Shown here one piece after another: positions 1 through 56,843 of a stretch of 56,843 bases of DNA. This DNA is from Acutalibacter sp. 1XD8-33 (GTDB lineage Bacteria > Bacillota > Clostridia > Oscillospirales > Acutalibacteraceae): NCBI RefSeq assembly GCF_003612555.1, contig NZ_RAZF01000017.1:1-56843 (forward strand). The letters run 5' to 3'. The notes under the pieces are model-generated. The model did not search any database. It saw nothing but the letters and a program-made list of their open reading frames with translations, and had not been told where the DNA came from. Position 1 is the stretch's first letter. Each line of letters starts with the position of its first letter. The position numbers and the translations under genes are program-made.

Positions 1-265
1 GGAGCGTTCTGACCTGACCGAGTCGGCAGACGAGACCAGCTGAGACTCAACGCCCTCAAGGTCTTGCCCTTAAACACCTGAGAAGCGTATTTTTGCCAGG
101 GTGGTGAATAATAGGTTAACACTCGCTGCGCTCGGTTAACTATCCGAGTTTTGCAAAGCAAAACTCTTAAGAGGGGACGGAGAGTTCATCTCGCACAGCG
201 AGATGAATCTCTTTTGCAACTGAGAAAAGCGTCCCCTGGAAACCGGAGCCAGCCAGCGCCGTGGA
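1..265. repeat. Mosaic palindromic intergenic repeat block 1 (cut by window edge)
   Basis: Start of the window lies inside a repeat mosaic also seen in many later gaps. Recognisable modules are a GAGACC/GGTCTC-type arm with CGACCGAG (about 18-40), the GGTCTTGCCCTTAA-ACACCTGAGAAGCG segment (about 60-90), a pair of GTTAAC boxes (115-120 and 134-139), a hairpin with stem GAGTTTTGC and loop AAA (146-166), and an inverted repeat GAGTTCATCTCG/CGAGATGAATCTC (182-212). The same modules recur near 8.3, 16.3, 45.7 and 56.8 kb. No credible gene lies in it. Confidence 0.85.
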
Positions 266-496
266 TGAACGCACCCAGCACGCCTTGCAAGCCCCTGGAA
301 GCGTGCCAAGCTCTCTCTCCCGGCCGCAAATGGGCAAAAAGAAGCCTGTCCCGAACGTGTGCAAAACCACCGCGTTGGGATGCGCGGAAAAGCGGCCCTG
401 AAAGCGCGACAGAAACCGCCCTTTGAGAAGGGAAACAGAAAGGCCGCAAAGGCAGGCGGCTCTAGGGCCGGGCCGGAGAAGGCGCTTGGCGGGTTC
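266..496. other. Intergenic stretch, no gene recognised
   Basis: Between the repeat block and the tandem repeats I see no ribosome-binding site followed by a convincing coding frame. The open frames here run through the repeat arrays on both strands and have low-complexity products, so I do not regard them as genes. Confidence 0.5.
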
Positions 497-568
497 AGTA
501 AAAGTGACAGTAAAAACGACAGTATAAACAGCAGTAAAAGTGACAGTAAAAACGGCAGTAGAAACCTC
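497..568. repeat. 12-bp tandem repeat, six units
   Basis: Six head-to-tail 12-bp units of consensus AGTAAAARYGRC fill 497-568. The first three and last three units form a 36-bp higher-order repeat (497-532 and 533-568). In one plus frame this reads as a Ser/Lys/Asp/Asn repeat, but without a start signal. Confidence 0.85.
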
Positions 569-574
569 AGCCAT

Positions 575-626
575 AATAAGACAAAGACAAAGAATAAGAC
601 AAAGACAAAGAATAAGACAAAGACAT
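575..626. repeat. 18-bp tandem repeat, almost three units
   Basis: The unit AATAAGACAAAGACAAAG occurs at 575-592 and 593-610 and, incomplete, at 611-626. It follows the 12-bp array by six bases and ends 80 bases before the CPBP gene. It is strongly purine-rich on the plus strand. Confidence 0.85.
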
Positions 627-705
627 CCCCCCACCCCCCAAGGGGGCTTCTCCCTGTGAGATCTGTTTGAGGAAAGAGAAGAAACGCCGGAAAGAAAGGA
701 AATTT

Positions 706-2247
706 ATGAATCAGGAAAATCAAGAGATCCAGGCGGCCAACGCCGCGCAGGCCCCGGGGCAGAGCATGTCCCCGCAGCCGGAACCGGCGGCAGCGCCCGG
801 GACTGCGTATTATGGGGGTCCGGCCGCAGACGCGGCCCCGTTTATCCCCGCCCAGGCCCAGCCGCCCGCCGGAAGCCCGGAGCAGGCCCCCGGCTACTGC
901 GGCCCGTACCAACCCCAGGGCGCGCCGGGCCCGGTTCCGCCGCCCGCCCAACCCTGGGGGCCCGCTCAGCCTCCATATCCGTATGCTTCGGTTCCCCAGG
1001 CCACCCCCCAGGCGGTAGCGCCCGGGACTGTGTATTACGGGGGTCCGGCCGCAAACGCGGCCCCGTTTATTCCCGCCCAGGCCCAACCGCCCGCCGGGAG
1101 TCCGGCTCAGGCCCCCGGCTACTGCGGCCCGTACCAGCCTCAGGGCACGCCGGGCCCGGTTCCGCCGCCCGCCCAACCCAGCGGGCCTGCTCAGCCCCCG
1201 TATTCCTATGCCCCGCCGCCGGTTCCGTCCCAGGCCTGCGGGTATGCCCCTCCGCCTTCCTACGCGGTAAAGTCCAAGGACCCGCGAAAAACCAACGCGG
1301 TGCGGGATCTGAATACCATGAGCGTGCTGGTGGCCGTCATGACCATGCTGAGCCTATTGATACAGAGCGTTGTGGTCTATGCCTGCATGAGCGCCGGGCT
1401 GGACCTGAGCGCCCCCTCTCAGGGGCTGGCCCTGGCGGTGATGACAGTGGCCATGTCTCCCCTGTGTACGGCCAGCCCTTGCCTTGGCTATATGCTCTTT
1501 GGCGGCAGGCGGCGGGACTGGAACTATCATCTGCGCTTTCAGAAGGTGGGGCCCTTTTCTCTGGTGCTGGTGTTGGGAGGGCTGGGGCTGTGCCTGTTGG
1601 CGAATTTCCCCGCCGCCGGGGTGGACGCCCTTCTGGAATCCCTGGGCGCCTCCGAGCCGGCCTCTGGGCTGGGCCAGGGGAAAAGCTGGTCCCAGCTGGC
1701 CGTGGAGCTTTTGGGGGTGGCGGTGCTGGTGCCCCTGGTGGAGGAGTTCGCGTTCCGGGGCGTGATCTTCTCCGGGCTGCGGCGGTTTGGCACAGGCTTC
1801 GCGGTGGTGGGCTCGGCGTTGATCTTTGGCTTCGCCCACCTGAGCCCCTCCTCGGTGGTGTTCGCCACCCTGGCGGGAGCCGTTATGGTCTGGCTCTATG
1901 CCGTTACGGGGAACCTGTGGGTCTCCGTGGCCATCCACATGCTGAACAACGCCCTGGCTGTGCTGGGGGAGTACGCCGGATTCCTGGCGGGGCCGGACAA
2001 TATGGCGCTACTGGAGAACATCCTGCTGTTTGGGCCCATGGCATTGGGGTTGTTGGCGGCTTTGCTGGGAGTCACGCTTTGGCGGAAGCGGCTGAAGAGC
2101 CTGTTCAGCCGGAACTTCCGGGAGCAGTCTCCTCTGGGCTGGCCTTCCCTGAAGCTGGGGGAGTCCGCGAGGTGCCTGGCCAGGTCTCTGGTGCTGTGGG
2201 GGCTGCTGTTCATCGTGATTCTGTATACCCTGTGCCTCTTCCTGTGA
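706..2247 (+). CDS. CPBP family intramembrane metalloprotease with proline-rich N-terminus
   Basis: Predicted integral-membrane protein of the CPBP (CAAX protease/bacteriocin-processing, Abi) family, about 513 residues. The C-terminal half is hydrophobic and carries the three family motifs in order: EEFAFRG near residue 346, FGFAH about 30 residues later, and HMLNN after that; the Glu and His residues are the likely metal-binding catalytic set. The first 200 residues are soluble, rich in Pro, Ala, Gln and Tyr, and contain a duplicated 75-residue segment. I chose ATG 706 because AAAGGAA lies just upstream; an in-frame start at 667 would only add a Lys/Arg-rich leader. The stop overlaps the tadA start by one base, so the two are probably translationally coupled. 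The substrate is unknown. Confidence 0.85.
   Translation: MNQENQEIQAANAAQAPGQSMSPQPEPAAAPGTAYYGGPAADAAPFIPAQAQPPAGSPEQAPGYCGPYQPQGAPGPVPPPAQPWGPAQPPYPYASVPQATPQAVAPGTVYYGGPAANAAPFIPAQAQPPAGSPAQAPGYCGPYQPQGTPGPVPPPAQPSGPAQPPYSYAPPPVPSQACGYAPPPSYAVKSKDPRKTNAVRDLNTMSVLVAVMTMLSLLIQSVVVYACMSAGLDLSAPSQGLALAVMTVAMSPLCTASPCLGYMLFGGRRRDWNYHLRFQKVGPFSLVLVLGGLGLCLLANFPAAGVDALLESLGASEPASGLGQGKSWSQLAVELLGVAVLVPLVEEFAFRGVIFSGLRRFGTGFAVVGSALIFGFAHLSPSSVVFATLAGAVMVWLYAVTGNLWVSVAIHMLNNALAVLGEYAGFLAGPDNMALLENILLFGPMALGLLAALLGVTLWRKRLKSLFSRNFREQSPLGWPSLKLGESARCLARSLVLWGLLFIVILYTLCLFL
793..1235 (+). repeat. 225-bp in-frame tandem duplication inside the CPBP gene
   Basis: The segment starting at 793 (GCGCCCGGGACT...) is repeated from 1018 with a 225-bp period (75 codons). 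Both copies encode a YYGGPAA-type start, an APFIPAQAQPP core and a PGPVPPPAQP end. Differences are scattered, so the duplication is not recent but still clearly recognisable. Confidence 0.85.
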
Positions 2248-4242: not shown

Positions 4243-4334
4243 AAGGGACTTTTGATATGGGGGCTTTTTAGGCGCGGCAGTGCGTCCAGATTTCAGAGAG
4301 CCGGGTGTGCTCTCGGCTGGTACGCTCGTGCGTT

Positions 4335-4715
4335 GCCGCTGGCCTGCTCCGGAACTAGGAAACTTTTTTCTCAGTTGCATTTCCTCTTGCCGATATTTTG
4401 CGAAGCAAAACTCGGACAGTTAGCCGAGTGAAACGAGGATTAACTGTTATTCACTACTTCAAAAAATGCGCTTCTTAGGAAGTTAAGGTCAAGGGCAAGA
4501 CCTTGGGAACGCTGGTCTCGCCTGCCGGTTCGGTCGGGTCAGAGCAATCGCCACCGGCGATTTTCCCCGCCCCTGGACCGCGCAATGTGTTGTGGCTGCG
4601 CGAAAACCGTAAAACGTTCACGACGAGCAAAGCGAGGAGTGGGTAAAAGTTTTGTCCACTTTTTCAAAAGTGGTGGGGGTCAGGGGGCGAAGCCCCCAGC
4701 CGCCGGAGGCCATAC
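4335..4715. repeat. Mosaic palindromic intergenic repeat block 2
   Basis: Fills most of the gap between the YdcF-like gene and the acetyltransferase. Modules include GAACTAGGAAACTTTTTTC (from 4351), an imperfect GTTAAC-type inverted region near 4415-4450, a CGCTTCT...GGTCAAGGGCAAGACC arm, CGACGAG-rich box, and a plus-orientation two-hairpin core: GTAAAAGTTTT at 4643, stem 1 CCACTTTT/AAAAGTGG at 4656-4673, stem 2 GGGGGC/GCCCCC with loop GAA at 4683-4697. A GCCGCCGGAGGCC tail follows, as at 51.45 and 55.65 kb. Confidence 0.85.
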
Positions 4716-8230: not shown

Positions 8231-8945
8231 TTCATTCGTCGTGAAGGTTTTATGTTGTTTGACAAGCTAGCCTAACAACCGTAAAAGTTTTGCGCGAGCT
8301 TTTTCAAAAGCTCGCGGAGTGTGAGGCAGAGCCTCACGACCTTGCCCTTGACCTTAAACACCTGAGAAGCGCAATTTTTGCGGGTGGTGAATAATAGGTT
8401 AACGCTCGCTGTGCTCGGTTAACTATCCGAGTTTTGCTCCGCAAAACATCGGCAAGAGGGGGGGCGGAGAGTTCATCTCGTATAACGAGATGAAACTCTT
8501 TTGCAACTGAATAAAAAGCACCCCTGGAAACCGGAACCAGCCAGCTCTGTGCGGTAGGCAAGCCTTTCGTTGGCTTTGCATATGCAAAGCCAAACAAGAA
8601 ACCCCCGACGAGGGTTTCTTGCGGAAAACAGTCCACCGGACTGTTTTCCTATCTTCCTGCGTTGCTTTCTCAGGTGTTTTAAGGACAAGACCTTGGGGCG
8701 TTGGGTCTCGGCTGCCGCCTCGGTCGGCGCTTGACGGTCCCCACTGGGGACCAGCGCCCCCAAACCCCACAAACTTTTTGAAAAGAAGTTTAAGACGTTA
8801 CCTTCGGTAAGTCTCAAAAACTTTTACCCTGGCGGGCTTTGTGCTCTCAGCCAGCGGCGAGCGTTCGCACCCAGCCAAAACGCGCTCTGGGCCAGCTGAA
8901 ATCTGGACGCGCTCTCGCGCCCACCGTACCCCCCATATATAAATA
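8231..8945. repeat. Mosaic palindromic intergenic repeat block 3
   Basis: Begins right after the pyrC stop. In order: reverse CGACGAATGAA box; two-hairpin core with GTAAAAGTTTT (8281), stem 1 GCGAGC/GCTCGC (8294-8315) and stem 2 GTGAGGC/GCCTCAC (8321-8337); GTCTTGCCCTTGACC arm; GTTAAC pair; GAGTTTTGC-type hairpin; GAGTTCATCTCG inverted repeat; GGAAACCGG-CCAGCCAG; palindrome around TTTGCATATGCAAAG; GAAACCC/GGGTTTC hairpin; CAGTCC/GGACTG hairpin with loop ACC; GGTCCCC/GGGGACC hairpin; and a reverse core ending CAAAAACTTTTACCCTGG near 8830. A GC-rich tail with CCGTACCCCCCATATA follows, shared with the pyrD leader. Confidence 0.88.
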
Positions 8946-10595: not shown

Positions 10596-11362
10596 AACCG
10601 TTTGATTCTGTTCTGTGTACATTGACGGAAGCGGCGGAGATCGCCCCAGGGATCTTCGACTTCCGCCTCCGCTGCCCGGAGCTGGCGGCTCTGGCCCTGC
10701 CCGGACAGTTCGCCCAGGTGCGCCTGCCGGGGCACATCCTGCGCCGTCCCATCTCCCTATGCGGCATCGACCGGGAGCGGGGGGAGCTGCGGCTGGTGTT
10801 CCAGGTGCGGGGGGAGGGCACGGCGGAGCTGGCCCGGTTCCAGGCCGGGGACTCCCTGGAGATCCTGGCCCCCCTGGGCAAGGGTTTCCCTCTCGACAGG
10901 GCGAAGCGGACCTTGCTTTTGGGAGGGGGGATCGGCGTGCCCCCGCTGCTGGCCGCGGCCCGGGAGCTGGGGGAAGCCGCGGTGGCTGTGCTGGGCTTCC
11001 GCACCCGGCAGGCCGTGATTCTGGAGGAGGACTTCCGCGCCGCCGGGGCCAGGGTGCTCATTGCCACGGACGATGGCAGCTATGGCTTCCACGGGCTGGT
11101 GACGGAGCTTGCGGCGGGGGAGGACTTCGACGTGCTCCTCGCCTGCGGGCCGGGGCCCATGCTTCGGGGGGCCAAGGCCCTGGCGGAGGAGAGGGGCGCG
11201 GCGGGATATCTCTCGTTGGAGCAGCGGATGGCCTGCGGCGTGGGGGCCTGCCTGGGCTGCGCGGTGGCTCTGCTGGACGAAAGCGGCGGGGAGTACTATG
11301 GCCATGTGTGTAAGGACGGCCCGGTGTTCCCCATGGAGAGCATCGCGGAGGGCGCACTTTAA
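10592..11362 (+). CDS. pyrK: Dihydroorotate dehydrogenase B, electron transfer subunit
   Basis: 256 residues of the ferredoxin-reductase type. LRRPISLCG binds FAD, LLLGGGIGVPPLLAAA and LLACGPGPML form the NAD(H) domain, and the C-terminal C-G-V-G-A-C-L-G-C with a later Cys binds the [2Fe-2S] cluster. It passes electrons from dihydroorotate oxidation in PyrD to NAD. Its ATG overlaps the preceding stop. The pyrD partner follows about 210 bases later after a repeat block. Confidence 0.95.
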   Translation: MKPFDSVLCTLTEAAEIAPGIFDFRLRCPELAALALPGQFAQVRLPGHILRRPISLCGIDRERGELRLVFQVRGEGTAELARFQAGDSLEILAPLGKGFPLDRAKRTLLLGGGIGVPPLLAAARELGEAAVAVLGFRTRQAVILEEDFRAAGARVLIATDDGSYGFHGLVTELAAGEDFDVLLACGPGPMLRGAKALAEERGAAGYLSLEQRMACGVGACLGCAVALLDESGGEYYGHVCKDGPVFPMESIAEGAL

Positions 11363-11530
11363 GACCTTGGGGACTCTGTCCCCAAGCCCCTGCGGCCTTT
11401 GAAAAGGCCGGCGAAACTTTTACCCGCTCCGCGTTCGTTCCATTGGCGGGCGCAGGGTACAAAGCCAAAACGCGCGCCCAGACTGGTGCCCCTTGACTAG
11501 CTCCCGCGCCCGCCGTACCCCCCATATAAA
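11363..11530. repeat. Mosaic palindromic intergenic repeat block 4
   Basis: Starts immediately after the pyrK stop. It is a reverse-orientation two-hairpin core: stem 2 TTGGGGAC/GTCCCCAA, stem 1 GGCCTTT/AAAAGGCC, then CGAAACTTTTACCC at about 11410. The tail CCAAAACGCGC...GCCGTACCCCCCATATAAAATACC closely matches the sequence directly upstream of pyrF (about 8878-8950). Confidence 0.85.
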
Positions 11531-16094: not shown

Positions 16095-16640
16095 GCGTGT
16101 TTTGGCCTCTGGCAGCCAGGGTTTCACCCTGGACTGGACCAAACTTTTTGAAAAAAATTTGGATCAAAAACTTTTACCCTGGTTGGCTTTTGGGCACTCA
16201 GCCAGCCAGATTAAAATGTTTCGTAGACTTCGTGAAACGAAGTCTTGCCTTTCTGAAAGGCGGCGAGGTGTGGGAGAGTTCGCTTCGCGAACTCTTGAGC
16301 TCCACGGTCTTGCCCTTAACACCTGAGAGGCGCAATTTTTGCGGGTGGTGAATGATAGTTAACGCTCGCTACGCTCGGTTAACTATCAAGAGGGGGGCGG
16401 AGAGTTCATCTCGTTGCACGAGATGAAACTCTTTTGCAACGGAACAAAAAGCACCCCTGGAAAACGGAGACAGCCAACTCTGGGCGCAGTATCTCAGCCA
16501 AAAGTTCCCGCCGGGCTGTTTGCCCGTTCACCCAGCCCGGCAGAGTTTTCCGTAGGAAAACTCATGTCACACGGCGAAACTCAGCTATCTCCTTCCGCCA
16601 TTCTTCGTGCCGTGTGCCGTTCCCCCCATAAAAAACTCCC
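16095..16640. repeat. Mosaic palindromic intergenic repeat block 5
   Basis: Holds a reverse core (AAACTTTTTGAAAAAAATTT, then CAAAAACTTTTACCCTGGTTGG near 16160-16190), CACTCAGCCAGCCAG, a TAAAATGTTTCGTAGACTTCG variant with its own inverted arms GACTTCGT/ACGAAGTC, a hairpin with GAGTTCGC/GCGAACTC (16272-16292), GGTCTTGCCCTTAACACCTGAGAGGCG, GTTAAC pair, GAGTTCATCTCG/CGAGATGAAACTC, a hairpin with stem GAGTTTTCC (16541-16563) and the GTCACACGGCGAAACTCAGCTA module. It ends about 40 bases before the MBL-fold gene. Confidence 0.85.
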
Positions 16641-19934: not shown

Positions 19935-20350
19935 ATCGCACCAAGTGTGTGCGAGGCGTAAGCTGGTTTTCGCGGTGGTGTCAAAAAGATTGACAGTCGC
20001 ACGGCTCGGTCTATCTTTCCGTTTCCACCCCAGCCGCGAAACGGCTGTCTTTTGCTACGCAAAAGTTCGGCGAAAACTCTGCAAAACTGGGTACGTATAC
20101 ACGCAGAACTGGCTGGTTCCGCATTCACCCCGCTCGCATTTTGTGGCGAGCCGCAAAATGCGAGCGGGGCGCCTGACGCGAAGAATGGAGCGATGAGATA
20201 GCTGGGTTTCGCCAGGCGTCATGAGTTTTGCAAAGCAAAACTCTGCAAAGCTGGGTGCGCAGCGCTATCCCCGCGGGCAAAGAGCCAGCCGAACGTGCTC
20301 TGCCTGGGGCGCGTCTCAAAAAATAGTTCCATAAAACTTTTATCCTGGTC
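19935..20350. repeat. Mosaic palindromic intergenic repeat block 6
   Basis: Begins with CCAAGTGTGTGCGAGGCG, then TTTCGCGGTGGTGTCAAAAA, CTCGG...TATCTTTCCGTTTCC, a GCATTTTGC-containing inverted pair (CTCGCATTTTG/CAAAATGCGAG, about 20138-20164), a GAGTTTTGC hairpin with loop AAA (20222-20242) and AAACTTTTATCCTGGTCAGC at the end. The same module order is seen at 49.44 and 56.6 kb. Confidence 0.85.
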
Positions 20351-23689: not shown

Positions 23690-24393
23690 CTGGCGGCTTA
23701 GGGAACTTTTTGAAAAAAGTTCCCTAAGAACCCTCAAAAACTTTTACCCTGGTTGGCTTTTGCGCACTCAGCCAGCCAGGGCAAAAGTTTCGTCAACCTT
23801 TTCAAAGGTTGCAGGGTGTGGGACAGAGTCCCACGGTCTTGTCCTTAAACACCTGAGAAAACAACGCAGGAAAATAGGAAAACAGTCCAGTGGACTGTTT
23901 TCCGTAAGGTCTCAGCTTCCGCTTCGGTCGGCGCTGAACGGTCTCCACAGGAGACCAGCGCCCCTCGTCGGGGGGTGAGCGTTCTGCCGGATACTTGGCA
24001 AAGCCAAGTATTGCAGACAACGCTGCGAACCGACCGAGCCGGCAGGCGAGACTCTTATCCCGACTGCGGAACAGGCGGGACAAAAGCCCTTAGCCCGGAG
24101 AAAGCCAGCGGCGTGTGGGTTTTTGTTTGATGGGCGCGCACCGGGCACAGGGCGTCCGGCTGGCTCTCCGCCCGCGGAGTCGGCTCTGTGCGCCTCGCAT
24201 CCAGTCCGGCGAGTTTTGCTTTGCAAAACTCGTGACACACGGCGCAACTCAGCTATATCCTTTCGCCATTGTCCGCGCCGTGTGCCCCGCTCGCATTTTG
24301 CGGCTCGCCGCAAAATGGCCGTGGGGAAACGGGCTTTGCCCGTTTCCCCGGCGGTTCGTCCTTCGGACGAACCCGAGCGGGGGCCGCCGGAAA
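23690..24393. repeat. Mosaic palindromic intergenic repeat block 7
   Basis: Begins with a 30-base near-perfect palindrome TTAGGGAACTTTTT/AAAAAGTTCCCTAA (23698-23727), then a head-to-head pair: ACTTTTACCCTGGTTGGCT facing AGCCAGCCAGGGCAAAAGT (23743-23788). A forward two-hairpin core follows: stem 1 CAACC/GGTTG (23794-23811), stem 2 GTGGGAC/GTCCCAC (23818-23834). Then CAGTCC/GGACTG hairpin with loop AGT (23877-23903), GGTCTCC/GGAGACC, TACTTGGC/GCCAAGTA with loop AAA, GAGTTTTGC with loop TTT (about 24210), CATTTTGCGG/CCGCAAAATG, GGGGAAACGGGC with loop TTT (24323-24349) and GGTTCGTCC with loop TTC (24353-24373). It ends at the mtaB stop codon. Confidence 0.9.
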
Positions 24394-25689: not shown

Positions 25690-26030
25690 GGCTTCGCTCC
25701 TGGATTTTGAAGTATCGGATGGCCGCTGGCAGTTTAGGGGTTCCACCCCTAAAAACCCCGCCACCTTTTGAAAAAGGTGGACGAAAACTTTTACGGTTGT
25801 TGGGTCAGCTCGTCAAAACATCAAAGCCTTCACGACGAATGAAATGAGGAGTGACATTGCGCGGTCAAGGGGCGGGGAAAATCGCCAGTGGCGAAGAGTT
25901 CATGCAGGCATGAACTCTTGCTCTGACCCGACCGAACCGGCAGGCGAGACCAACGTCCCCAAGGTCTTGCCGTAGGGCGCGGCAGGCTTGGCGTAGCCAA
26001 GTCTTGTGCGCCCGAAGGCCCCCTACCACT
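25690..26030. repeat. Mosaic palindromic intergenic repeat block 8
   Basis: A reverse two-hairpin core: stem 2 AGGGGTT/AACCCCT-type near 25735, stem 1 CCACCTTTT/AAAAGGTGG (about 25761-25781), box GAAAACTTTTACGGTTG. Then CTTCACGACGAATGAAATGAGGAG and GACATTGCGCGGTCAA (near-identical to 43.33-43.42 kb over about 80 bp), a GTTCATGCAGGCATGAAC palindrome, and a CTTGGC/GCCAAG hairpin with loop GTA. Confidence 0.85.
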
Positions 26031-29011: not shown

Positions 29012-29160
29012 AGAGAAAAACGTTCCTTTCAAAAGCGGGAATGGGGCATCGCGAAAAAGCGCCCCGGAACAGGAGAACAGCGGGCGTTCCCTTTTGGGCC
29101 GCGTTAACGATATGCCAAATCATGTCTTAATAATTTATGTAAAGTAATTTCTTAAAATCC

Positions 29161-41589: not shown

Positions 41590-42015
41590 GGGCGCCGTAA
41601 AAGTTTTTGATCAAACTTTTTTCAAAAAGTTTGTGGGGTTTGGGGCAACGCCCCAAGGTCTTGCCCTTGACCTGAAACACCTGAGAAAGCAACGCGGGAA
41701 AATAGGGGAACAGTCCAGTGGACTGTTCCCCGCAAGAAACCCACGTATGGGGTTTCCTGTTTGGCTTTGCATTTGCAAAGCCAACGAAAGCTATATAGCA
41801 CTGGCTGGTTCCGGTTTCCAGGGGATGCTTTTTCTCTTTGCAAAAAGCATCCCCTCTTTGCGCATTCTGCGCAAATTCACCCCTGCAAAAATGCGCTTCT
41901 CAGGAGGTAAGGTCAAGAGATAAGACCTTGAGGGCGTTGCCCTCAAACTCCCACCACCTTTGAAAAGGTGGACGAAACTTTTACCCTGGTGGGCTTTGCC
42001 GGAATCAGAAAGCCT
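41590..42015. repeat. Mosaic palindromic intergenic repeat block 10
   Basis: Starts 22 bases after the RNase H stop with GTAAAAGTTTTTGATCAAAC and a forward two-hairpin core (stem 1 CAAAC/GTTTG, stem 2 TTGGGGC/GCCCCAA). Then the CCTTGACC-ACACCTGAGAAAG arm, CAGTCC/GGACTG hairpin with loop AGT, GAAACCC-type hairpin, TTTGCATTTGCAAAG, CCCCT/AGGGG around 41820-41860, and a reverse core with CCACCTTT/AAAAGGTGG (41951-41968) ending GAAACTTTTACCCTGG. The block is thus bounded by inverted GTAAAAGTTT boxes. Confidence 0.88.
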
Positions 42016-42019
42016 GCGT

Positions 42020-43183
42020 CTATCCCCGCACAGCCTTCTCCAGGCGCTCCAGGGCCTCCTCCAGCACCCGCCGGGGCACCGCCAGATTCACCCGCTCGAA
42101 CCCCGCGCCCTCTTCGCCAAACATGTAGCCCTCGTCCAGGAACAGCTCCGCCTTCTGGACCATCATCTCCTCCAGCTCCTCCTTGGTCTTGCCCAGAGCA
42201 GTGCAGTCCAGCCAGAGAAGATAGGTGCCCTGCAGCTCCACAGGCTTGATCTCCGGCAGATTCTCCCGGATGAAATCCACCGCCAGCCGGTAGTTCTGGT
42301 GGATGGTCTCAATCATCTCCTCCATCCAGGCCTCGCACTGGGTATAGGCAATGCGGCAGGCCTCCAGGCCCAGAGCGGGGGGACCGCCGTGGCCCGCCAC
42401 CTTCCGGAACGCCTCCCGGTCCGCCTCGTTGGGGATGATGATGTTGGATGTCTGCATGGCCGCCAGATTGAAGGTCTTGCTGGGCGCGGTGCACACGATG
42501 ATCTCGTCCTCCGGGGCCACCGCGGCGATGACGGTGTGCTTGTGACCGGGCATGATGATGTCAAAGTGGATCTCGTCGCTGACAATGCGCACGTGGTTCT
42601 TCCGGCAGATTTCCGTGATCCGCCGGAGCTCCTCCTCGGTCCACACCCGGCCCACGGGGTTGTGGGGGCTGCACAGAATGAGCATTTTGCTGTTCTCCTC
42701 CGCCGCCAGCTTTTCCAGCAGGCCGAAGTCGATGGAATAAACGCCGCCCTCATAGACCAGGGGGCAGCGGACGGTCTGGCAGCTGTGGTTCTCAATGGCC
42801 ATGTAGAAGGGGTAGTAGACCGGCGTGAAGATGATGACCCCGTCGCCCGGCTGGCAGAAGGCCCGCACCGCGAACATCAGGGCCTCCACCACGCCCCGGG
42901 TGCCGCAGATCCACTCCGGCTCAATGTGCCAGCCGTGGCGCTTCTCCATCCAGGCGCAGACCGTGCCGAGATACTCCTCTGTGGGACCGGTGTAGCCCAG
43001 GATATGGGTGTCCATATAGGCCTTCAGGCCCTCCCCGATCTCCGGGGCGTTTTTGAACTCCATATCCGCCACGGAGAAGGGGACGATTCCCGGGGAGAGA
43101 TCGGGCTTTTTCTCCTTCATGCCGTTCCATTTTCCGCTGCCGTGCTGAGAGCGGTCGATCAGGGTCTCGAAATCGTACTTCAT
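42020..43183 (-). CDS. PatB/MalY-type PLP-dependent C-S lyase or aminotransferase
   Basis: 387 residues. MKYDFETLIDRSQHGSGKWNGM and VPFSVADMEFKNAPEI are characteristic of the MalY/PatB cystathionine beta-lyase subgroup. HNPVGRVWTEEEL and SDEIHFDI are fold-I motifs, and the Schiff-base Lys is in APSKTFNLAAMQTS. The likely reaction is cleavage of cystathionine or cysteine conjugates to homocysteine or thiol, pyruvate and ammonia. ATG 43183 has AAGGAG nine bases upstream. Confidence 0.9.
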   Translation of the reverse strand: MKYDFETLIDRSQHGSGKWNGMKEKKPDLSPGIVPFSVADMEFKNAPEIGEGLKAYMDTHILGYTGPTEEYLGTVCAWMEKRHGWHIEPEWICGTRGVVEALMFAVRAFCQPGDGVIIFTPVYYPFYMAIENHSCQTVRCPLVYEGGVYSIDFGLLEKLAAEENSKMLILCSPHNPVGRVWTEEELRRITEICRKNHVRIVSDEIHFDIIMPGHKHTVIAAVAPEDEIIVCTAPSKTFNLAAMQTSNIIIPNEADREAFRKVAGHGGPPALGLEACRIAYTQCEAWMEEMIETIHQNYRLAVDFIRENLPEIKPVELQGTYLLWLDCTALGKTKEELEEMMVQKAELFLDEGYMFGEEGAGFERVNLAVPRRVLEEALERLEKAVRG

Positions 43184-43204: not shown

Positions 43205-43548
43205 TGAGTAATATGGGGCCTCCATGCGCAAAGAAACGCGCATTCCGGCAAGACCTTGGAGGCGCTGCCTCCAAACCTCCGCGAGCTTTTGAAGAAAGCT
43301 AAGACTTCGCAGAGCGAAGTTTGCAAAACTTTTACGGTTGTTCGGTTAGCTCGTCAAAACACATAAAACCTTCACGACGAATGAAATGAGGAGTGACATT
43401 GCGCGGTCAAAGACTTGGCGTAGCCAAGTCTCAGGCGTCTAGGCCCCTTGCGGGGTGTGGGGGAGAGCGTCTGCCAGCGGTAGACACGCTGCGAACCGAC
43501 CGAGGCGGCAGCCGAGACCCAGCGCCCCACGACCTTGCCAGCGGCCCA
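43205..43548. repeat. Mosaic palindromic intergenic repeat block 11
   Basis: Contains GGAGGCGCTGCCTCC, GCGAGCTTTTGAAGAAAGCT, the GACTTCGCAGAGCGAAGT inverted repeat, AAACTTTTACGGTTG, GACGAATGAAATGAGGAG with GACATTGCGCGGTCAA (matches block 8), ACTTGGC/GCCAAGT with loop GTA and GTCTGCC/GGTAGAC arms. It ends at the methyltransferase stop codon. Confidence 0.82.
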
Positions 43549-45224: not shown

Positions 45225-46130
45225 TGTGATTTTTTGAGGGGGAACGGTGCGCGCGGCGGCTGAGCAAGGAGCACAAGTCCGGGCACATTTTCTGGCTGGG
45301 ATGCTGCGCCCGCCGCTGACGTTCTCCGCATCCGCCCCGCTCGGGTTCGTCCATAGGACGAACCGCCGGGGAAACGGTCAAAGCCCGTTTCCCCACGGCC
45401 ATTTTGCGGCTCGCCGCAAAATGTGAGCGGGGCGCCCGACGCGAGGAATGGAGCGATGAGATAGCAAGGTTTCGTCAGGCGTCATGAGTTTTGCAAAGCT
45501 GGGTGCTGGACGCCCGCCGCGCCAAGAATGGTGAAATGAGCAGGCTGGGTTTCGCGGTAGTGTCAAAAAGATAAACACTCGCATAGCTCGGTTTATCTTT
45601 CCGTTTTCCTGCGGAAAACTCGCCGGGCTGGGTGCGTTTCTTCACGCCGCTGGCCGGTTCCGGTTTCCAGGGGAGCTTTTTATTCAGTTGCAAAAGAGAT
45701 TCATCTCGCACGGCGAGATGAACTCTCCGCCCCCCTCTTGTATAGTTAACCGAGCGCAGCGAGTGTTGACCTATTATTCACCACCCGCAAAAATTGCGCT
45801 TCTCAGGCTATTAAGGGCAAGATCTTGGGGACGCCGGTCTCGCTTGCCGCTTCGGTCGGTTCGCAGCATGGTCTGCAATACTTGGCTTTGCCAAGTATCC
45901 GGCAGAACGCTCACCCCTCAAACTTCCACGAGCTTTTGAAGAAAGCTAAGACTTCGCAGAGCGAAGTCTGCAAAACTTTTACGATGGTTCGGTTAGCTTG
46001 TCACAACATCAAAACCTTCACGACGAATGTAATGAGGAGTGGGTAAAATGTTTCGTAGACTTCGTTCTACGAAGTCTTACCTTTCTCAAAGGTTGCGGAG
46101 GTTTGGAGGCAGAGCCTCCAAGGTCTTAAA
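45225..46130. repeat. Mosaic palindromic intergenic repeat block 12
   Basis: About 0.9 kb without a credible gene. Modules: AACGGTGCGCGCGGCGGCT...GCAAGGAGCAC (as at 47.34 kb), GGTTCGTCC hairpin with loop ATA (45344-45364), GGGGAAACGG/CCGTTTCCCC with one mismatch, CATTTTGCGG/CCGCAAAATG, GAGTTTTGC, TTTCGCGGTAGTGTCAAAAA, the GAGATTCATCTCG inverted repeat, reverse GTTAAC region, TACTTGGC/GCCAAGTA with loop TTT, GAGCTTTTGAAGAAAGCT, AAACTTTTACGATGG, CGACGAATG box and a TAAAATGTTTCGTAGACTTCG end unit. It ends next to the TraX-like gene's ribosome site. Confidence 0.88.
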
Positions 46131-46144
46131 AAAAGGAGGATTTC

Positions 46145-46798
46145 ATGAGCTCTGCGGCGCTGCAATGCCTCGCCCTTGGGACCATGCTCATCGACCACAT
46201 CGGCTTTCGGCTCTTCCCCCAGACAGAGCCCCTGCGGATGGTGGGGCGGCTGGCATTTCCCATCTTCGCCTTTCTGCTGGCGGAGGGCTTCGTAAAAACC
46301 GGGGACCGGAAGCGGTACTTCCTGCGGCTGGGGGCCTTCGCCCTGCTGTCCGAGATCCCATACAAGATTTTCGTGTACGGGGACCGGTGGGGTACATATA
46401 TGGGAGTGAACCCCTGGCGGAACGTATTTTTCGAGCTGGTGCTCATGTTCCTGGCCCTCTGGTGCGCGGAGCGGGGAGGACTCTTCTGGCTGGGCGCCGG
46501 GGGACTGGCGGTGCTGGCAGAGGCCCTGGGGACCATGTACGGGGGTTACGGCGTGCTGCTGGCCATGGGATTTTTCCTGTTCCGGGAGAAGCGCTGGGCG
46601 GGGATGCTTTGCCTTGGTGCGCTGACGCTTTTATACTGCGGCTTTCACAATAGCTGGTTTCAGATCTGGGCCGTCGGGGCGGCGGTTCCCCTGGGCTTTT
46701 ACAACGGCCAGCAGGGACGGCGGCTGCCCCGGTACTTCGGCTATGTGTTCTACCCCGCCCATCTGCTGGCCATTTACGCCGTCTGGCTGGCTTTTTAA
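46145..46798 (+). CDS. TraX family membrane protein
   Basis: 217 residues with six to eight hydrophobic segments. LQCLALGTMLIDHIGFRLFP, RMVGRLAFPIFAFLLAEGF and the terminal YVFYPAHLLAIYAVW are the TraX signature (F-pilin acetylase family). Chromosomal TraX homologues without any conjugation genes are common in Firmicutes and are thought to acetylate unknown surface or cell-wall components. AAAAGGAGGA precedes the ATG. It is isolated between two long repeat blocks. Confidence 0.85.
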   Translation: MSSAALQCLALGTMLIDHIGFRLFPQTEPLRMVGRLAFPIFAFLLAEGFVKTGDRKRYFLRLGAFALLSEIPYKIFVYGDRWGTYMGVNPWRNVFFELVLMFLALWCAERGGLFWLGAGGLAVLAEALGTMYGGYGVLLAMGFFLFREKRWAGMLCLGALTLLYCGFHNSWFQIWAVGAAVPLGFYNGQQGRRLPRYFGYVFYPAHLLAIYAVWLAF

Positions 46799-47750
46799 GG
46801 TCGTGGGGCGTTGGGTCTCGCCTGGTCTCGTCTGCCGACTCGGTCGGGTCAGAACGATTGCCACCGGCAATCTTCCCCGGCTCGGTCGGTTCGCGGCGTG
46901 TCTGCCACTGGCGATTGTCGCCCCCTAAGAACCCCACAAACTGTTTGAAAAGAAGTTTAAGACGTTACCTTCGGTAAGTCTCAAAAACTTTTACCCTGCT
47001 TCCTCACTTCGTTCGTCGCACACGGCGCGAAGAATGGCGAAAAGATAGGGCTAGGTTTCGCCGTGTGTCATGAGTTTTGCTTCGCAAAACTCTGCCAAGC
47101 TGGGCGCAGGCGCACTCAGCTAGCCAGGGTAAAAGTTTCGTCAACCTTTTCAAAGGTTGCAGGGTGTGGGACGGAGTCCCATGGTTTTGCCTTTGACCTT
47201 AAACTCCTAAGAAGCGCATTTTTGGTGGTGAATTGACGGGCGAAGCCCGGCAAGAGGCCCCTTTTTGCAAGAAAGAGGCCTAGTCTCGGGGTAAGCCAGC
47301 TCTGTGGGCAGCATGTGCTTTTTTTGATGGGTGGAGAACGGCGCGCACGGCGGCTAGGCAAGGAGCACAAGTCCGGGCACGTTTTCTAGCTGGGCGCGGG
47401 CACACGCCGCTGGCTTTTGCCGCATGTGCCCCGCACCCAGCCCTGCAGAGTTTTCCGCAGGAAAACGGAAAGATAAACCGAGCCGCGCGAGTGTTTATCT
47501 TTTTGTCACGACCGCGAAGCCTAGCCTACGCCTTGCATTTGCTTGGCGCGGTGTACCCCGCTCGCATTTTGCGGCAGGCCGCAAAATGGCCGTGGGAAAA
47601 CGGGCAAAGCCCGTTTTCCCGGCGGTTCGTCCGAAGGACGAACCCGAGCGGGGCCCGTCGCGCCCACAGCCCCCCTTCAAAAACAAACAGAAAAGCAAAA
47701 GCAGACCCCAGGGCGAAAAGCTCCGGGGCCCGCTTTTTCATTCTACTTCC
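46799..47750. repeat. Mosaic palindromic intergenic repeat block 13
   Basis: Starts right after the TraX-like stop. It includes AAACTGTTTGAAAAGAAGTTT with GACGTTACCTTCGGTAAGTC, CAAAAACTTTTACCCTG, GAGTTTTGC with loop TTC (about 47073), AGCCAGGGTAAAAGTTTCGTC, a forward two-hairpin core (CAACC/GGTTG 47142-47159; GTGGGAC/GTCCCAT 47165-47181), GGCCTC repeats, AACGGCGCGCACGGCGGCT, GAGTTTTCC hairpin, CATTTTGCGG inverted pair, GGGAAAACGGGC with loop AAA (47594-47620) and GGTTCGTCC with loop GAA (47624-47644). It ends close to the esterase stop. Confidence 0.88.
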
Positions 47751-49431: not shown

Positions 49432-49790
49432 AGTAATAGGAGGCCTCCGGCACACCGCGCCAAGCGGAGCGAAATGAGCAGGCTAGGTTTCGCGGTGGTG
49501 TCAAAAAGATTAACACTCGCACGGCTCGGTCTATCTTTCCGTTTCCGCCCCAGCCGTGAGACGGCTGTCTTTTGCTGCGCAAAAGTGCGGCGAAAACTCT
49601 GCCAAGCTGGGTGCGGACGCTCTCAGCTGGCCAGGGGCCTGTCTCAGCTGCCGCTTCCGTCGCCGACCGAAGCGGCAGCTGAGACTCAACGCCCCTAAGC
49701 CGCTGGAGGGTGAGCGTCTGCCAGTGGCAGACACGCCGCGAACCGACCGAGCCGGCAGGCGAGACTCCAACACATCGTCTAAAACATCGT
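49432..49790. repeat. Mosaic palindromic intergenic repeat block 14
   Basis: Begins GGCCTCCGGCACACCGCGCCAAGC, then TTTCGCGGTGGTGTCAAAAA and CTCGGTCTATCTTTCCG (as block 6), CAGCCGTGAGACGGCTG, TTTTGC-TGC-GCAAAA hairpin, CTCAGCTGGCCAG, CGACCGAAGCGGCAGCTGAGAC facing GTCTCAGCTGCCGCTTC, GTCTGCC/GGCAGAC with loop AGT, and CCGGCAGGCGAGAC. Confidence 0.85.
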
Positions 49791-51305: not shown

Positions 51306-51500
51306 GGTCCCCGGCGAACTCTCCCACACCCTGCGAGCTCTTGAAGAAAGCTAAAACTTTTACGCTGGCCAGATGGACCGGTTCATGCCAACCAGGGTAA
51401 AAGCTTTTGAGGGTTCTTAGGGAACTTTTTTCAAAAACTTCCCTAAGCCGCCGGAGGCCGTAACTATCGTAAAAATATTTCACGAAACCGGGACGTCCCC
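51306..51500. repeat. Mosaic repeat block 15, inside the spoIIIA operon
   Basis: Lies between spoIIIAB and spoIIIAC, which normally abut. It starts with TGCGAGCTCTTGAAGAAAGCT and TAAAACTTTTACGCTGGCC, which faces CCAACCAGGGTAAAAGCTTTTGAG in inverted orientation (51348-51408). Then stem TTAGGGAA/TTCCCTAA around 51417-51447 and the GCCGCCGGAGGCCGTAACTA tail. The strong stem-loops would be expected to affect read-through in the operon. Confidence 0.88.
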
Positions 51501-53236: not shown

Positions 53237-53620
53237 GGGCAAGATCTTGGGGGCGCTGGTCTCACCTGGGCTCGTCTGCCGGTTCGGTTGGTTCGCGGCG
53301 TTGTCTGCAATACTTGGCTTTGCCAAGTATCCGGCAGAACGCTCACCCCCACACTCCGCCAGCTGGTCAATGTTGTTCCATAAAATGTTCGCGACGAATG
53401 AAATGAGGAGCGGGTGAAAGTTTTTGAGACTTACCGAAGGTAACGTCTTAAACTTCTTTTCAAAAAGTTTGTGGGGTGTGGGGATGACAATCACCTGCGG
53501 CGATTTCCCGTCGCCGACCGAGGCGGGAAAGCTCCCCAGTGGGGGAGAGTTCATGCAGGCATGAACTCTCCCGACCGAGTCGGCATCCGAGACCAGCCGA
53601 GACAACCCCAAGGCCTTAGA
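53237..53620. repeat. Mosaic repeat block 16, inside the spoIIIA operon
   Basis: About 400 bp of repeat between spoIIIAE and spoIIIAF. Modules: GGGCAAGATCTTGGG, CGTCTGCCGGTTCGGTTGG, TACTTGGC/GCCAAGTA with loop TTT (about 53312), GACGAATGAAATGAGGAG, GTGAAAGTTTTTGAGAC with GACTTACC/GGTAACGTC arms, AAACTTCTTTTCAAAAAGTTT, and a GTTCATGCAGGCATGAAC palindrome (about 53551-53568). A GAGAAAGGAG ribosome site for spoIIIAF follows. Confidence 0.88.
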
Positions 53621-53637
53621 GAAAGGAGCGAAAACAG

Positions 53638-54631: not shown

Positions 54632-54673
54632 ATGAAAACTGATAAATGAAAATTGACAAAGGTGGGTGCATCC

Positions 54674-55249: not shown

Positions 55250-55261
55250 GGCGGCGCTCAG

Positions 55262-55302
55262 AAACAGGCATGTTCCGCCGGTCGCGGGGATGCCTGTTTT
55301 TT
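55262..55302 (+). terminator. Intrinsic terminator of the spoIIIA operon
   Basis: Stem AAACAGGCAT / ATGCCTGTTT with a GC-rich loop, followed by TTT and TC. Located 13 bases after the spoIIIAH stop. Confidence 0.9.
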
Positions 55303-55329
55303 CTGTGGCAGGGGGAAAGGCGCGGCTAC

Positions 55330-55450
55330 GGCAAGACCTTGGGGTTTTGAGTCTCAGCTACCGCTTCGGTCGGTTCGCAGCATGTCTGCCACTGGCAGAC
55401 GCTCACCCCCAAACCCCACAAATCGCCACAGGCGATTTTCCCCGCCCCTT
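55330..55450. repeat. Mosaic palindromic intergenic repeat block 17 (short)
   Basis: GCAAGACCTTGGGG, GAGTCTCAGCTACCGCTTCGG, GTCTGCC/GGCAGAC with loop ACT, CTCACCCCCAAACCCCACAAA and ATCGCCACAGGCGATTTTCCCCGCCCCTTGACCGCG (compare 4.55 kb). Confidence 0.8.
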
Positions 55451-55513
55451 GACCGCGTAAATTATTTCGTTATTGACTGAATAATGTATTTGGCTTTTCC
55501 TCAAAACTTAGCC

Positions 55514-55542
55514 TTGCCCGGAGAGAAAAAGAATGGTATAAT
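55514..55542 (+). promoter_or_regulatory. Sigma-A promoter of the ClpP-like gene
   Basis: TTGCCC (55514-55519), 17-bp spacer, perfect TATAAT (55537-55542). It lies about 200 bases ahead of the start codon, leaving a leader that contains a repeat core. Confidence 0.7.
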
Positions 55543-55582
55543 AAAGCCACGGCAACGGCAATCGCCAAATGGACGCGGCAAA

Positions 55583-55672
55583 GCAAACCAGGGTAAAAGT
55601 TTCGTCAACCTTTTCAAAGGTTGCGGGGTTTTCAGGGGCAGAGCCCCTGAACCGCCGGAGGCCACACAGTAT
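55583..55672 (+). repeat. Mosaic repeat block 18: two-hairpin core in a 5' leader
   Basis: The simplest isolated copy: CAAACCAGGGTAAAAGTTTC, stem 1 CAACC/GGTTG (55606-55623), stem 2 TCAGGGGC/GCCCCTGA with loop AGA (55632-55650), and the CCGCCGGAGGCC tail. It lies between the promoter at 55.5 kb and the ClpP-like gene, hence inside the mRNA leader. Confidence 0.85.
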
Positions 55673-55745
55673 TACTTTAAAAAATCGTTCCGTATCTTTT
55701 TTCCGGTTTTGGGCACACTCTTTCCATAAAGGAGAGTGCTGTCCA

Positions 55746-56513
55746 ATGAAAAAAACTGTCACAAAAAAAAGCCAGGTTAAGGCTTTGAAGAATCAGGAGG
55801 AAGCGAACCAGGAGCAGGAGGAGCTGTCTCAGCAGCAGAAGCAGATCACGGAGAGCGGCTCAGTGGTCACCCACAACCACGGGCACACCGTGCACTGCTT
55901 GACCATTATTGGCCAGATCGAGGGGCACTACATCTCCCCCTCTCAGAATAAAACCACCAAGTACGAGCACGTGATCCCCCAGATCGTGGCGGTGGAGGAG
56001 GACCCGGAGATCGACGGCCTCCTGATGCTGCTGAACACCGTGGGCGGGGATGTGGAGGCCGGGCTGGCCCTGGCGGAGCTGGTGGCCGGCATGAAGAAGC
56101 CCACCGTGTCTCTGGTTCTGGGCGGCGGGCATTCCATCGGGGTGCCTCTGGCTGTGGCGGCGAAGCGATCTTTCATTGCGGAATCCGCCTCCATGACCAT
56201 CCACCCCGTGCGCATGAACGGCCTGGTGCTGGGAATCCCCCAGACCTTGGAGTATTTTCAGCGGATGCAGGACCGGATCACCAATTTCGTCACCCAAAAT
56301 TCTAACATCAGCAAAGAGCGCTTCACCACCCTGGCCATGAACACCCAGGAGCTGGTGATGGACGTGGGCACGGTGCTGGACGGGCCGGACGCGGTGGAGG
56401 AGGGGCTCATCGACTCCCTTGGCTCTCTTTCTGACGCCATGGACTGCCTCAACCGCATGATCGACAAGGAGAAAGGGAAGCGCAGGCCCGGGCGGCCAAA
56501 AAAATCCCAATAG
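55746..56513 (+). CDS. ClpP-like serine protease, TepA/YmfB type
   Basis: 255 residues. A charged Gln/Glu-rich N-terminus of ~40 residues, then a ClpP-crotonase fold: [50 protein letters not shown] with nucleophile S130 in GHSIG, and H153 in MTIHPVR. The C-terminus ends in a basic [10 protein letters not shown] tail. The TepA (translocation-enhancing protein) group in Firmicutes is the best match; in Bacillus the homologue lies near spoIIIE. ATG 55746 has AAGGAG about 11 bases upstream; the longer in-frame extension is made of repeat sequence. Confidence 0.88.
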
Positions 56514-56519
56514 AAAACC

Positions 56520-56541
56520 GGCCTTTCCGGCGGGAAGGGCC
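56520..56541 (+). terminator. Stem-loop after the ClpP-like gene
   Basis: Nine-pair stem GGCCTTTCC / GGAAGGGCC (one G-U) with loop GGCG, seven bases after the stop. There is no T-run, so it may stabilise rather than terminate. Confidence 0.45.
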
Positions 56542-56574
56542 TACATAAAAAGGCTAGGCTTCAGGCGTTGGCGA

Positions 56575-56843
56575 TTTTATATGGGCGCGTGGGTGTGTGC
56601 GCTGGCTGATTGCGGAGCACGGCGCCAAGCGAGTGCGAGGCGTAGGCTGGGTTTCGCGGTAGTGTCAAAAAGATAAACACTCGCATCGCTCGGTTTATCT
56701 TTCCGTTTTGCAAAGCAAAACTCGCCGGGCTGTTGTGCCTCCGGCCAGCGATGGCTGGTTCCAGAACTAGGAAACTTTTTTCTCAGTTGCAAAAGAGATT
56801 CATCTCGCACGGCGAGATGAACTCTCCGTTTCCTCTTGCCGCT
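56575..56843. repeat. Mosaic palindromic intergenic repeat block 19 (cut by window edge)
   Basis: GCGCCAAGCGAGTGCGAGGCG, TTTCGCGGTAGTGTCAAAAA, CTCGGTTTATCTTTCCG, a GTTTTGC hairpin with loop AAA (about 56705-56723), CCAGCGATGGCTGG, GAACTAGGAAACTTTTTTC (56764 on) and the GAGATTCATCTCG/CGAGATGAACTC inverted repeat. The last part repeats block 2 but contains a hairpin module that block 2 lacks. Confidence 0.85.

Follow-up and report, generated by a model that had tools for sequence, protein, structure and literature searches.

The intergenic regions of this 56,843-nucleotide stretch of the Acutalibacter sp. 1XD8-33 genome (here called the window) contain mosaic repeat blocks that are best explained, with a probability of roughly two in three, by small, non-autonomous mobile elements of several kinds, all hairpin-forming, that have inserted again and again both between genes and within one another. 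The most clearly defined of them, which we term Y, is about 50–71 nt long.

Dispersed 13-mers, defined as those with four or more further copies over 795 kb of this genome, account for 10.6 % of the window; with genes taken from a simple in-house caller, they make up 30 % of the intergenic sequence and 2.0 % of the genic sequence there. Joining these 13-mers across gaps of less than 80 nt, with at least 40 bases covered, gave 22 blocks that sum to 13.4 % of the window (Table 1), near to the nineteen gaps and about 15 % given in a preliminary description of this DNA; the longest, block 11, measures 940 bp, where about 0.95 kb had been reported. Self-comparison of the window with 14-mers covered 13.6 % of it, against 1.2–1.4 % in three order-2 Markov controls. 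The blocks hold several unrelated modules, and those named in the preliminary description were recovered, with 16 copies of the GTAAAAGTTT box (both strands), five of GAGTTCATCTCG, and the GAGTTTTGC, GGTTCGTCC and TACTTGGC hairpins. Confinement of the modules to the window had been named as a finding that would count against a repeat family, and they are instead dispersed genome-wide: the GTAAAAGTTT box has 303 genome copies against 27 for a reversed control, and the window is approximately threefold enriched over the genome mean (16 of the 303 in 1.6 % of the bases).

Palindromes are abundant in the intergenic DNA. A search for perfect inverted repeats (stem of at least 8; loops of 0, 2, 3, 4 or 5) found 408 in 180 kb of gaps and 12 in a Markov control. 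Three-base loops, earlier thought characteristic of the modules, were present in 231 of the 408 and two-base loops in 120, so the three-base loop is the commonest form without being universal. The idea of a single large modular family likewise stands in part: the repeats are genome-wide, mosaic, palindrome-built and, in the window, mostly intergenic, but pairs of filled and empty sites resolve them into several small palindromic elements nested in each other. A flipping of content between CCCCGCTCG arms was also considered and dropped, as the orientation of the whole element accounts for the pattern.

Table 1. Coordinates of mosaic repeat blocks, Y elements and GTAAAAGTTT boxes in the window
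Feature	Position	Strand	Remarks
Mosaic repeat block 1	1..247		dispersed 13-mers
Mosaic repeat block 2	4282..4713		dispersed 13-mers
Mosaic repeat block 3	8233..8912		dispersed 13-mers
Mosaic repeat block 4	11358..11425		dispersed 13-mers
Mosaic repeat block 5	16124..16458		dispersed 13-mers
Mosaic repeat block 6	16539..16633		dispersed 13-mers
Mosaic repeat block 7	19978..20348		dispersed 13-mers
Mosaic repeat block 8	23697..24109		dispersed 13-mers
Mosaic repeat block 9	24206..24382		CCCCGCTCG..CGAGCGGGG stem, three hairpins within
Mosaic repeat block 10	25746..25977		dispersed 13-mers
Mosaic repeat block 11 (longest)	26366..27305		as merged, overlaps 3′ end of minus-strand ORF 27107-29032
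Mosaic repeat block 12	41595..42066		dispersed 13-mers
Mosaic repeat block 13	43217..43539		dispersed 13-mers
Mosaic repeat block 14	45326..46131		dispersed 13-mers
Mosaic repeat block 15	46795..47306		dispersed 13-mers
Mosaic repeat block 16	47445..47654		dispersed 13-mers
Mosaic repeat block 17	49441..49767		dispersed 13-mers
Mosaic repeat block 18	51322..51461		dispersed 13-mers
Mosaic repeat block 19	53248..53585		dispersed 13-mers
Mosaic repeat block 20	55322..55460		dispersed 13-mers
Mosaic repeat block 21	55586..55678		dispersed 13-mers
Mosaic repeat block 22	56575..56838		dispersed 13-mers
Y element	15..36	+	conserved 3′ core; truncated by window start
Y element	4515..4564	-	
Y element	8705..8756	-	near box at 8818
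Y element	23909..23960	-	
Y element	24031..24052	+	3′ core; TACTTGGC hairpin nested in 5′ half
Y element	25929..25950	+	3′ core; GAGTTCATG hairpin within inner hairpin
Y element	26737..26791	-	
Y element	26807..26858	+	
Y element	43497..43518	+	3′ core
Y element	45837..45858	-	3′ core; nested TACTTGGC hairpin
Y element	46825..46874	-	within another Y; flanks left agccgggg, right caggcgag
Y-like palindrome	49664..49685	+	3′ core; minus-strand match too, 49641-49735
Y element	49711..49765	+	
Y element	53269..53290	-	3′ core; nested TACTTGGC hairpin
Y element	53572..53593	+	3′ core; nested GAGTTCATG hairpin
Y element	55351..55405	-	
GTAAAAGTTT box of box-H1-H2 core	4643..4652; further + starts 8281, 27033, 41597, 47129, 55593	+	
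GTAAAAGTTT box	8818..8827; further - starts 11414, 16168, 23738, 25785, 41975, 43326, 45973, 46985, 51354	-	

Filled and empty versions of the same site carry the argument for insertion. Within this one genome there are 137 such cases, and 71 of the inserts, from 44 gaps, contain the Y core; 58 of these 71 are 45–62 nt long. The junctions are exact in 26 of the 71, replace one to three bases in 42 and overlap in three; that most are inexact tells against the model. MITEs of DDE-type transposons have terminal inverted repeats and duplicate their target, whereas duplication could apply here to those three cases at most, and the outer stem of Y is closed by bases of the target itself. Nesting is seen directly, as Y within Y and as a 23-nt GAGTTC palindrome within Y. 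The filled/empty pairs thus show that small palindromic elements have entered one another, and the target is seldom if ever duplicated. A search for empty sites through synteny with four other genomes (G005, G010, L003 and L004) was abandoned, these being too rearranged, and no polymorphism for presence or absence of Y was seen among strains of a single species; the closest congener in the comparison is 85 % identical at one protein.

Y combines an outer stem, closed by the GG of the target, with an inner stem whose loop has three bases; a further hairpin is optional, and the 3′ core reads GACCGA-NN-CGGCAG-nn-GAGAC, NN being paired with nn. The two dinucleotides are complementary in 92 of 114 copies from the Acutalibacter genome (shuffle mean 25.8, maximum 40 in 2000), and the covariation score of 80 distinct 54-nt copies is 0.510, against 0.168 for shuffles and at most 0.098 for slid controls. 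Two of five covariation measures were weak, pairs changed on both sides numbering 10 (10.0 in shuffles) and pair types 37 (32.5). The RNAalifold consensus omits the outer stem; for the 3′ core, where a pseudoknot was one candidate, RNAalifold favours a nested 3-bp hairpin that uses the same covarying bases. Pairing in the core is thus shown, whatever its topology. Outside the main stems, GACCGA and the terminal GAGAC (GTCTC on the opposite strand) are conserved, and the GTGCG start may resemble that of group II introns.

Covariation of this strength could also be a sign of RNA function, in which case the blocks would be structured RNA (terminators, mRNA stabilisers or ncRNAs) under RNA-level selection, a reading that draws on the terminator-like hairpins and on the occurrence of GTAAAAGTTT boxes in 21 convergent against 10 divergent gaps (51 : 49 among all gaps). 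However, box orientation relative to genes is balanced, at 43 to 39 in same-strand gaps, and among non-standard cells G.T hardly exceeds A.C (10 to 8; 2 to 0 among the 368 cells of H2), a combination that fits a constraint on DNA rather than mRNA. A catalogued family, which the preliminary description had raised as a competing identity, was not found in Rfam: the whole window gave no match at gathering scores, and two stretches searched at relaxed E gave sub-gathering matches only. As copies are also located within protein genes and within one another, selection at the RNA level is quite an unlikely origin of the blocks. Among the titles and abstract openings listed in literature searches, none described the repeat family, and the sequence and peptide strings matched no paper.

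The left junction of Y follows a simple rule. In viruses, 16 copies (14 distinct) retrieved with a pattern beginning after the Gs are preceded by GG in every case and by GGG in 14 of 16, and in the Acutalibacter genome GGG precedes 79 of the 88 copies with a called left end (88 called of 121), by a caller that demanded GG. Hairpin arms 6 bp or longer span the insertion site in 32 of these 88 copies, where 300 shuffles of the flanks gave a mean of 7.6 and a maximum of 16; Y therefore occupies the tips of hairpins already in place more often than by chance.

We propose that Y inserts after GG or GGG, the target GG completing its outer stem, and that nesting of copies, which reach hundreds in some lineages of the genus, would generate the mosaics. 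A structure-recognising enzyme acting in trans may insert the folded single strand, with the target GG paired to CC of Y. Such a step would follow the logic of IS200/IS605 ends, and membership of that family is not implied. PATEs and other non-autonomous derivatives of IS200/IS605 elements have no target duplication, a fixed 5′ target, end hairpins and target pairing; Y resembles them in its near lack of target duplication and its position 3′ of a fixed short target, but differs in that the one IS inspected, through the flanks of the Y1 gene in L083, showed no Y-like ends. Insertion into lagging-strand ssDNA predicts a replication-strand bias, and Y, in contrast to that prediction, shows none (42 versus 46 copies by GC skew, 36 versus 48 by coding strand), though strand assignment is weak here.

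The same mosaic could have arisen through replication errors, by switching of template from copy to copy at G runs and hairpins and by arm-to-arm correction, without any enzyme belonging to the element. Such a process would suit the even strand distribution, the excess of hairpin tips among targets, and arms that remain paired despite varied sequences and loops (27 distinct 7-bp inner arms among 111 hairpins), but it hardly explains the fixed left end and the motifs conserved outside the main stems, nor is it easily reconciled with Y in phages and other families; we regard it as distinctly unlikely. Copying of a structured RNA by a reverse transcriptase, primed by the 3′ GGG of the target on a template-terminal CCC, would produce one fixed and one looser junction with little target duplication, as observed. 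Across the 29 genomes of the genus, however, the presence of RVT_1 is unrelated to Y density (Spearman 0.03), and RVT_1 is lacking from G026, with 203 Y copies, and from G023, which is 86 % complete and carries 131 copies without RVT_1 or Y1_Tnp, making reverse transcription a doubtful route. No enzyme has come to light for Y, which tells against our account; insertion of mobile elements into intergenic DNA and each other nevertheless remains the preferred one.

As the preliminary description had stated for the window, no transposase or RAYT-like gene was seen, here among the 10 window proteins scanned. The Y1/RAYT search suggested there turned up a single intact Y1 gene for this genome, encoding 160 aa and lying beside a serine recombinase gene in a low-GC stretch; judged by reading, it looks like an ordinary IS200-type TnpA. 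REP sequences with RAYT carry a GTAG/GGAG-type tag conserved at one end of a 20–40 nt palindrome; the conserved end of Y is GAGAC. The blocks share with REP, BIME and REPIN sequences an intergenic, palindromic and clustered nature and hundreds of short copies, and a Y1 gene is at hand, so a RAYT (Y1) transposase might be thought to have moved them. Y1_Tnp, however, occurs in 9 of the 29 genus genomes (this one included), and its presence is uncorrelated with the density of Y (Spearman 0.22, P=0.25), the resident Y1 appears to belong to its mobile region, and the blocks reach 0.94 kb with several unrelated modules; movement by RAYT is very improbable. A multi-copy transposase was not found in an 852 kb sample with the in-house gene caller, though IS copies may be collapsed in the 106-contig draft; three of the genes called there had a paralogue above 70 % (two identical genes in tandem, and a pair on contig C9).

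The Y core motif has 267 matches in the Acutalibacter genome and from 0 to 203 across 28 congeners, 25 of which contain it. Beyond the genus, 45 of the 294 genomes searched in the order contain it as well, and since a reversed-motif control matched once in eight genomes, some single matches are due to chance. Phages, transfer elements and further families of clostridia carry Y in low numbers, so that it reaches beyond its own lineage. Plasmids gave no match to the relaxase stretch, the TnpV stretch or a 66-nt element, and a phage search with a 21-residue insert gave none either, as expected of so short a query.

Small palindromic repeats are common, and their mode of movement is mostly unknown. 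Neisserial intergenic mosaic elements and pneumococcal BOX are likewise modular, mosaic and intergenic, whereas the modules described here are hairpins inserted into hairpins. The mitochondrial hairpin elements (RHE of sponges, double-hairpin elements of Allomyces and GC clusters of yeast) are described as repetitive and are thought to be mobile; those of Allomyces lack flanking duplications, and in a sponge larger motifs were copied too (PMC2800124). Y differs from these in residing on a bacterial chromosome, in phages and in transfer elements, in the definition of its target on the left side, and in covariation that could be measured. A bolder and rather unlikely reading would make Y a minimal mobile element in a class by itself, a nucleic-acid fold of ~50–71 nt that would find its target by base pairing (GG completing the outer stem), insert into hairpin tips and genes, and travel on phages and conjugative elements, no transposase gene being linked to it. 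With its clear left-target rule, filled and empty sites in one genome, 28 congeners of widely differing copy number, phage carriers and genic copies, Y opens the spread of tiny non-coding hairpins, and the tolerance of proteins for them, to direct tests in gut clostridia grown in culture.

Y also enters genes. In other genomes, coding copies lie in cytosine-methylase, relaxase, TnpV and phage genes, and in 11 of the 13 the element is crossed by a single open frame, a figure biased upwards because open frames guided most of the finds; the comparison with element-free homologues covered cases other than L214, L176, L178, L219 and L224. Orthologous TnpV sites without Y exist, and a few bases of the target are missing at the TnpV insertion site. 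As the open frame mostly continues through it, coding Y is probably translated, and gene models for methylases, relaxases and TnpV on clostridial mobile elements may hide a foreign insert of ~21 residues. Splicing or ribosome bypass was considered, and the keeping of frame argues against both, with two out-of-frame cases (L164 and L169) remaining; self-splicing introns, by comparison, need not preserve the frame of their host. Rickettsia palindromic elements (RPEs), some of them CGTC-tagged, are described as small palindromic repeats, many of which lie in-frame in protein genes (PMC3733652, PMC10969869). By description, Y is like RPEs in its in-frame position within unrelated protein genes, and unlike them in following a GG or GGG that closes its outer stem, in nesting in hairpins, in its occurrence in clostridial phages and transfer elements, and in its covarying 3′ mini-stem. 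In the Acutalibacter genome itself, 7 of the 121 Y copies are within predicted genes.

The source genome (G000), whose contig C12 is the window, is a 3.62 Mb draft in 106 contigs with a completeness of 99.98%, and its closest named relatives, judged from one enzyme, are clostridia of the Neglecta/Neglectibacter type. G000 may be a spore-former, which would fit the SpoIIIAE match, below the cut-off, of one gene in the window. The preliminary description read the intergenic repeats of the window as mosaics of palindromic modules, and all the modules it named were recovered. Comparison with 795 kb of the same genome delimited 22 blocks of dispersed repeat DNA, which make up 13.4% of the window; the repeated DNA itself covers 30% of the intergenic bases and 2.0% of the genic bases. 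A count of perfect inverted repeats with stems of at least 8 gave 408 for 180 kb of gaps, whereas a Markov control had 12 and coding DNA 0.10 per kb.

An all-vs-all comparison of gaps in G000 yielded 290 pairs (137 once merged) with an insert of 14–140 nt that is absent from the partner; 110 cases were inspected by reading and all 137 were recounted. The core of Y, the best-defined palindromic element, lies inside 71 of the 137 inserts, spread over 44 different gaps, as in the filled site tttgggg|Y|caacgcccc and its empty counterpart tttgggg|caacgcccc, and includes cases of one Y nested in another. The insert was the sole difference from the empty site in 26 of these 71 cases, whilst 1–3 bases were replaced in 42 and 3 overlapped at the site, so target duplication by Y is at most rare. 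A perfect stem of at least 7 was present in 102 of the 137 inserts, and the same filled/empty pattern was seen for shorter palindromes (GAGTTC.., AACTTGGC..) and for a GC-rich two-hairpin piece of about 57 nt.

Y combines an outer stem, an inner stem and the 3′ core GACCGA-NN-CGGCAG-nn-GAGAC, with NN–nn complementarity in 92 of 114 G000 copies (mean 25.8 and maximum 40 in 2000 shuffles) and in 18 of 24 copies from a 240-kb sample of the congener G026. For covariation, 80 distinct 54-nt copies (58 from G000, 8 from G026 and 14 from other genomes or phages) were drawn from 279 core matches via the position of the inner hairpin, a selection that favours the inner stem and leaves the outer stem and core pairing unaffected. 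Pairing held in 93.7% of cells overall, in 85.6% for the outer stem and in 94.4% for NN–nn, and the covariation score was 0.510, compared with 0.168 for shuffles and at most 0.098 for slid structures. Pairs changed on both sides showed no excess in the 80 copies (10 vs 10.0 in shuffles), and the RNAalifold consensus retained the inner stem and the 3′ mini-stem and dropped the outer stem. Upstream of Y, GG was present in 16/16 viral copies and GGG in 14/16, using a pattern that excludes the Gs themselves, although two pairs of the contigs concerned are identical. In G000 the left end was placed in 88 of 121 copies by a caller that demanded GG, and 79 of the 88 have GGG. The CC within Y pairs with this target GG. 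Arms of at least 6 bp surround 32 of the 88 insertions (7.6 with shuffled flanks); hairpin tips are favoured, yet are no requirement.

Only 7 of 121 Y copies in G000 fall within predicted genes, despite these covering 75% of the sample, and Y is therefore essentially intergenic in this genome. Elsewhere, Y occurs inside protein genes (see table). An open frame runs unbroken through Y in 11 of 13 coding cases (binomial p 2e-4 against one third), a proportion biased by the collection of cases partly through searches for open frames; Y is out of frame in L164 and L169. All six frames were free of stop codons in 12 of the 52 rows drawn from other sources and in 3 of the 61 rows from G000. Among 10 Y-bearing proteins compared with Pfam, six matched above the cut-off, one (L175) below it and three not at all. 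The domain match of the L158 relaxase is split into two stretches, and the Y insert (residues 117–140) directly precedes the better one, which starts at residue 141. Comparison with Y-free homologues covered L180 and L175 (against L207 and each other) as well as TnpV; the TnpV genes without Y (L230–L233) make the empty site visible, relative to which filled sites have lost a few target bases.

Coding copies of Y and coordinates of other features
Stretch	Coordinates	Feature
L180		Y in phage cytosine-methylase-like gene
L175		Y, twice, within phage cytosine-methylase-like coding sequence
L214		Y in phage cytosine-methylase-like gene; identical in sequence to L223, counted once
L158 (G223:C1)	579-1019 and 7448-8875	Y in TnpV and relaxase genes of one contig, about 7 kb apart
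L163		Y in TnpV gene
L164, L169		Y in TnpV homologues of L163
L176, L178, L219, L224		Y in open frames
L181 (G415:C9)	about 1490-1850	Two partial tRNA-Pro copies downstream of intact tRNA-Pro gene
Window	496-579	Tandemly repeated 12-bp unit (CAGTAAAAGTGA-like), with no apparent relation to the palindromes

We prefer a model in which Y moves by folded-strand insertion: an enzyme supplied in trans would insert a folded strand of Y, and the target would be recognised through pairing with the CC of Y. The ends of IS200/IS605 elements read their target by base pairing, a logic that the proposed pairing resembles. The lack of any visible strand bias of Y counts against folded-strand insertion, and Y may instead move by RNA-primed copying or by template switching. 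A survey of Y1 transposases and reverse transcriptases in 29 genomes of the genus, G000 among them, found no mobilizing enzyme for Y: the former occur in nine genomes and the latter in 12, and neither presence tracks Y density (Spearman 0.22 and 0.03, respectively). The Y1 TnpA gene of G000 (L083, contig C9), IS200-type by reading, lies in a stretch of low GC, next to a gene resembling serine recombinases. Among the titles and abstracts listed in searches of the open-licence literature, none described the Y family. The closest precedents are Rickettsia palindromic elements (RPEs) for in-frame palindromes (PMC3733652, PMC10969869) and, for mobility that leaves no duplication, mitochondrial hairpin elements (PMC2800124).

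A second recurrent unit is the core built on the GTAAAAGTTT box, which has 303 copies in the genome (reversed control 27). Read by eye from 117 box-aligned copies in 852 kb, its commonest order is a variable upstream part, the box, hairpin H1, a GGGGTxTG-like link, hairpin H2 and then AAGGTCTT or CCGCCGGAGG. Both hairpins exist in many versions whose arms vary in sequence with complementarity kept, and they harbour other modules within them. H2 hairpins with at least 6/8 standard pairs were found at 46 of 445 anchor matches, with 13 distinct 5′ arms; their 368 cells contain two G.T, no A.C and 25 further mismatches, many near the loop. In a separate count of non-standard cells, G.T (10) was not clearly favoured over A.C (8), and the boxes have no preferred orientation with respect to genes; on these grounds we place the constraint at the level of DNA. 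An extended box, GTAAAAGTTTYGTC, matches in 14 of 59 relatives.

With up to one mismatch, the Y core is matched 267 times in G000 and turns up in 25 of the 28 congeners (range 0 to 203; 203 in G026 and 131 in G023). Outside the genus, 45 of 294 genomes of the order have it; the reversed control gave one match in each of eight genomes of this set, so some of the single matches are chance. Within the class, a stricter 27-nt pattern was found in six of 390 further genomes, same-family ones among them. In viral contigs the exact core matches 11 stretches, at least four of which (L170, L172, L177 and L179) are, by reading, chance matches in unrelated coding sequence, and a 5′-half pattern matches 18. 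A 66-nt Y element matches 3 of 50,697 phage records; the single annotated record that was inspected has it within a 216-bp frame annotated on the opposite strand.

Y was also seen in other settings. Each partial tRNA-Pro copy in L181 has two tandem Y at the place expected for the stretch from anticodon arm to T arm, and in L189/L193 (G630) Y-like elements lie near a tRNA array, followed by TTCGAACCTGTTCGAATTCGACC, a T-arm-like string. An element of ~200 bp in L153 and L154 (G282) has terminal inverted repeats CTGATTAAAT..ATTTAATCAG and a Y-like core inside. In L150–L152 (G051) and L155–L156 (G083), Y cores adjoin or occupy other dispersed-looking sequences that contain the word GATGAGGTG or GAGGTAGCGAAGCGG; some lie close to the end of a contig.
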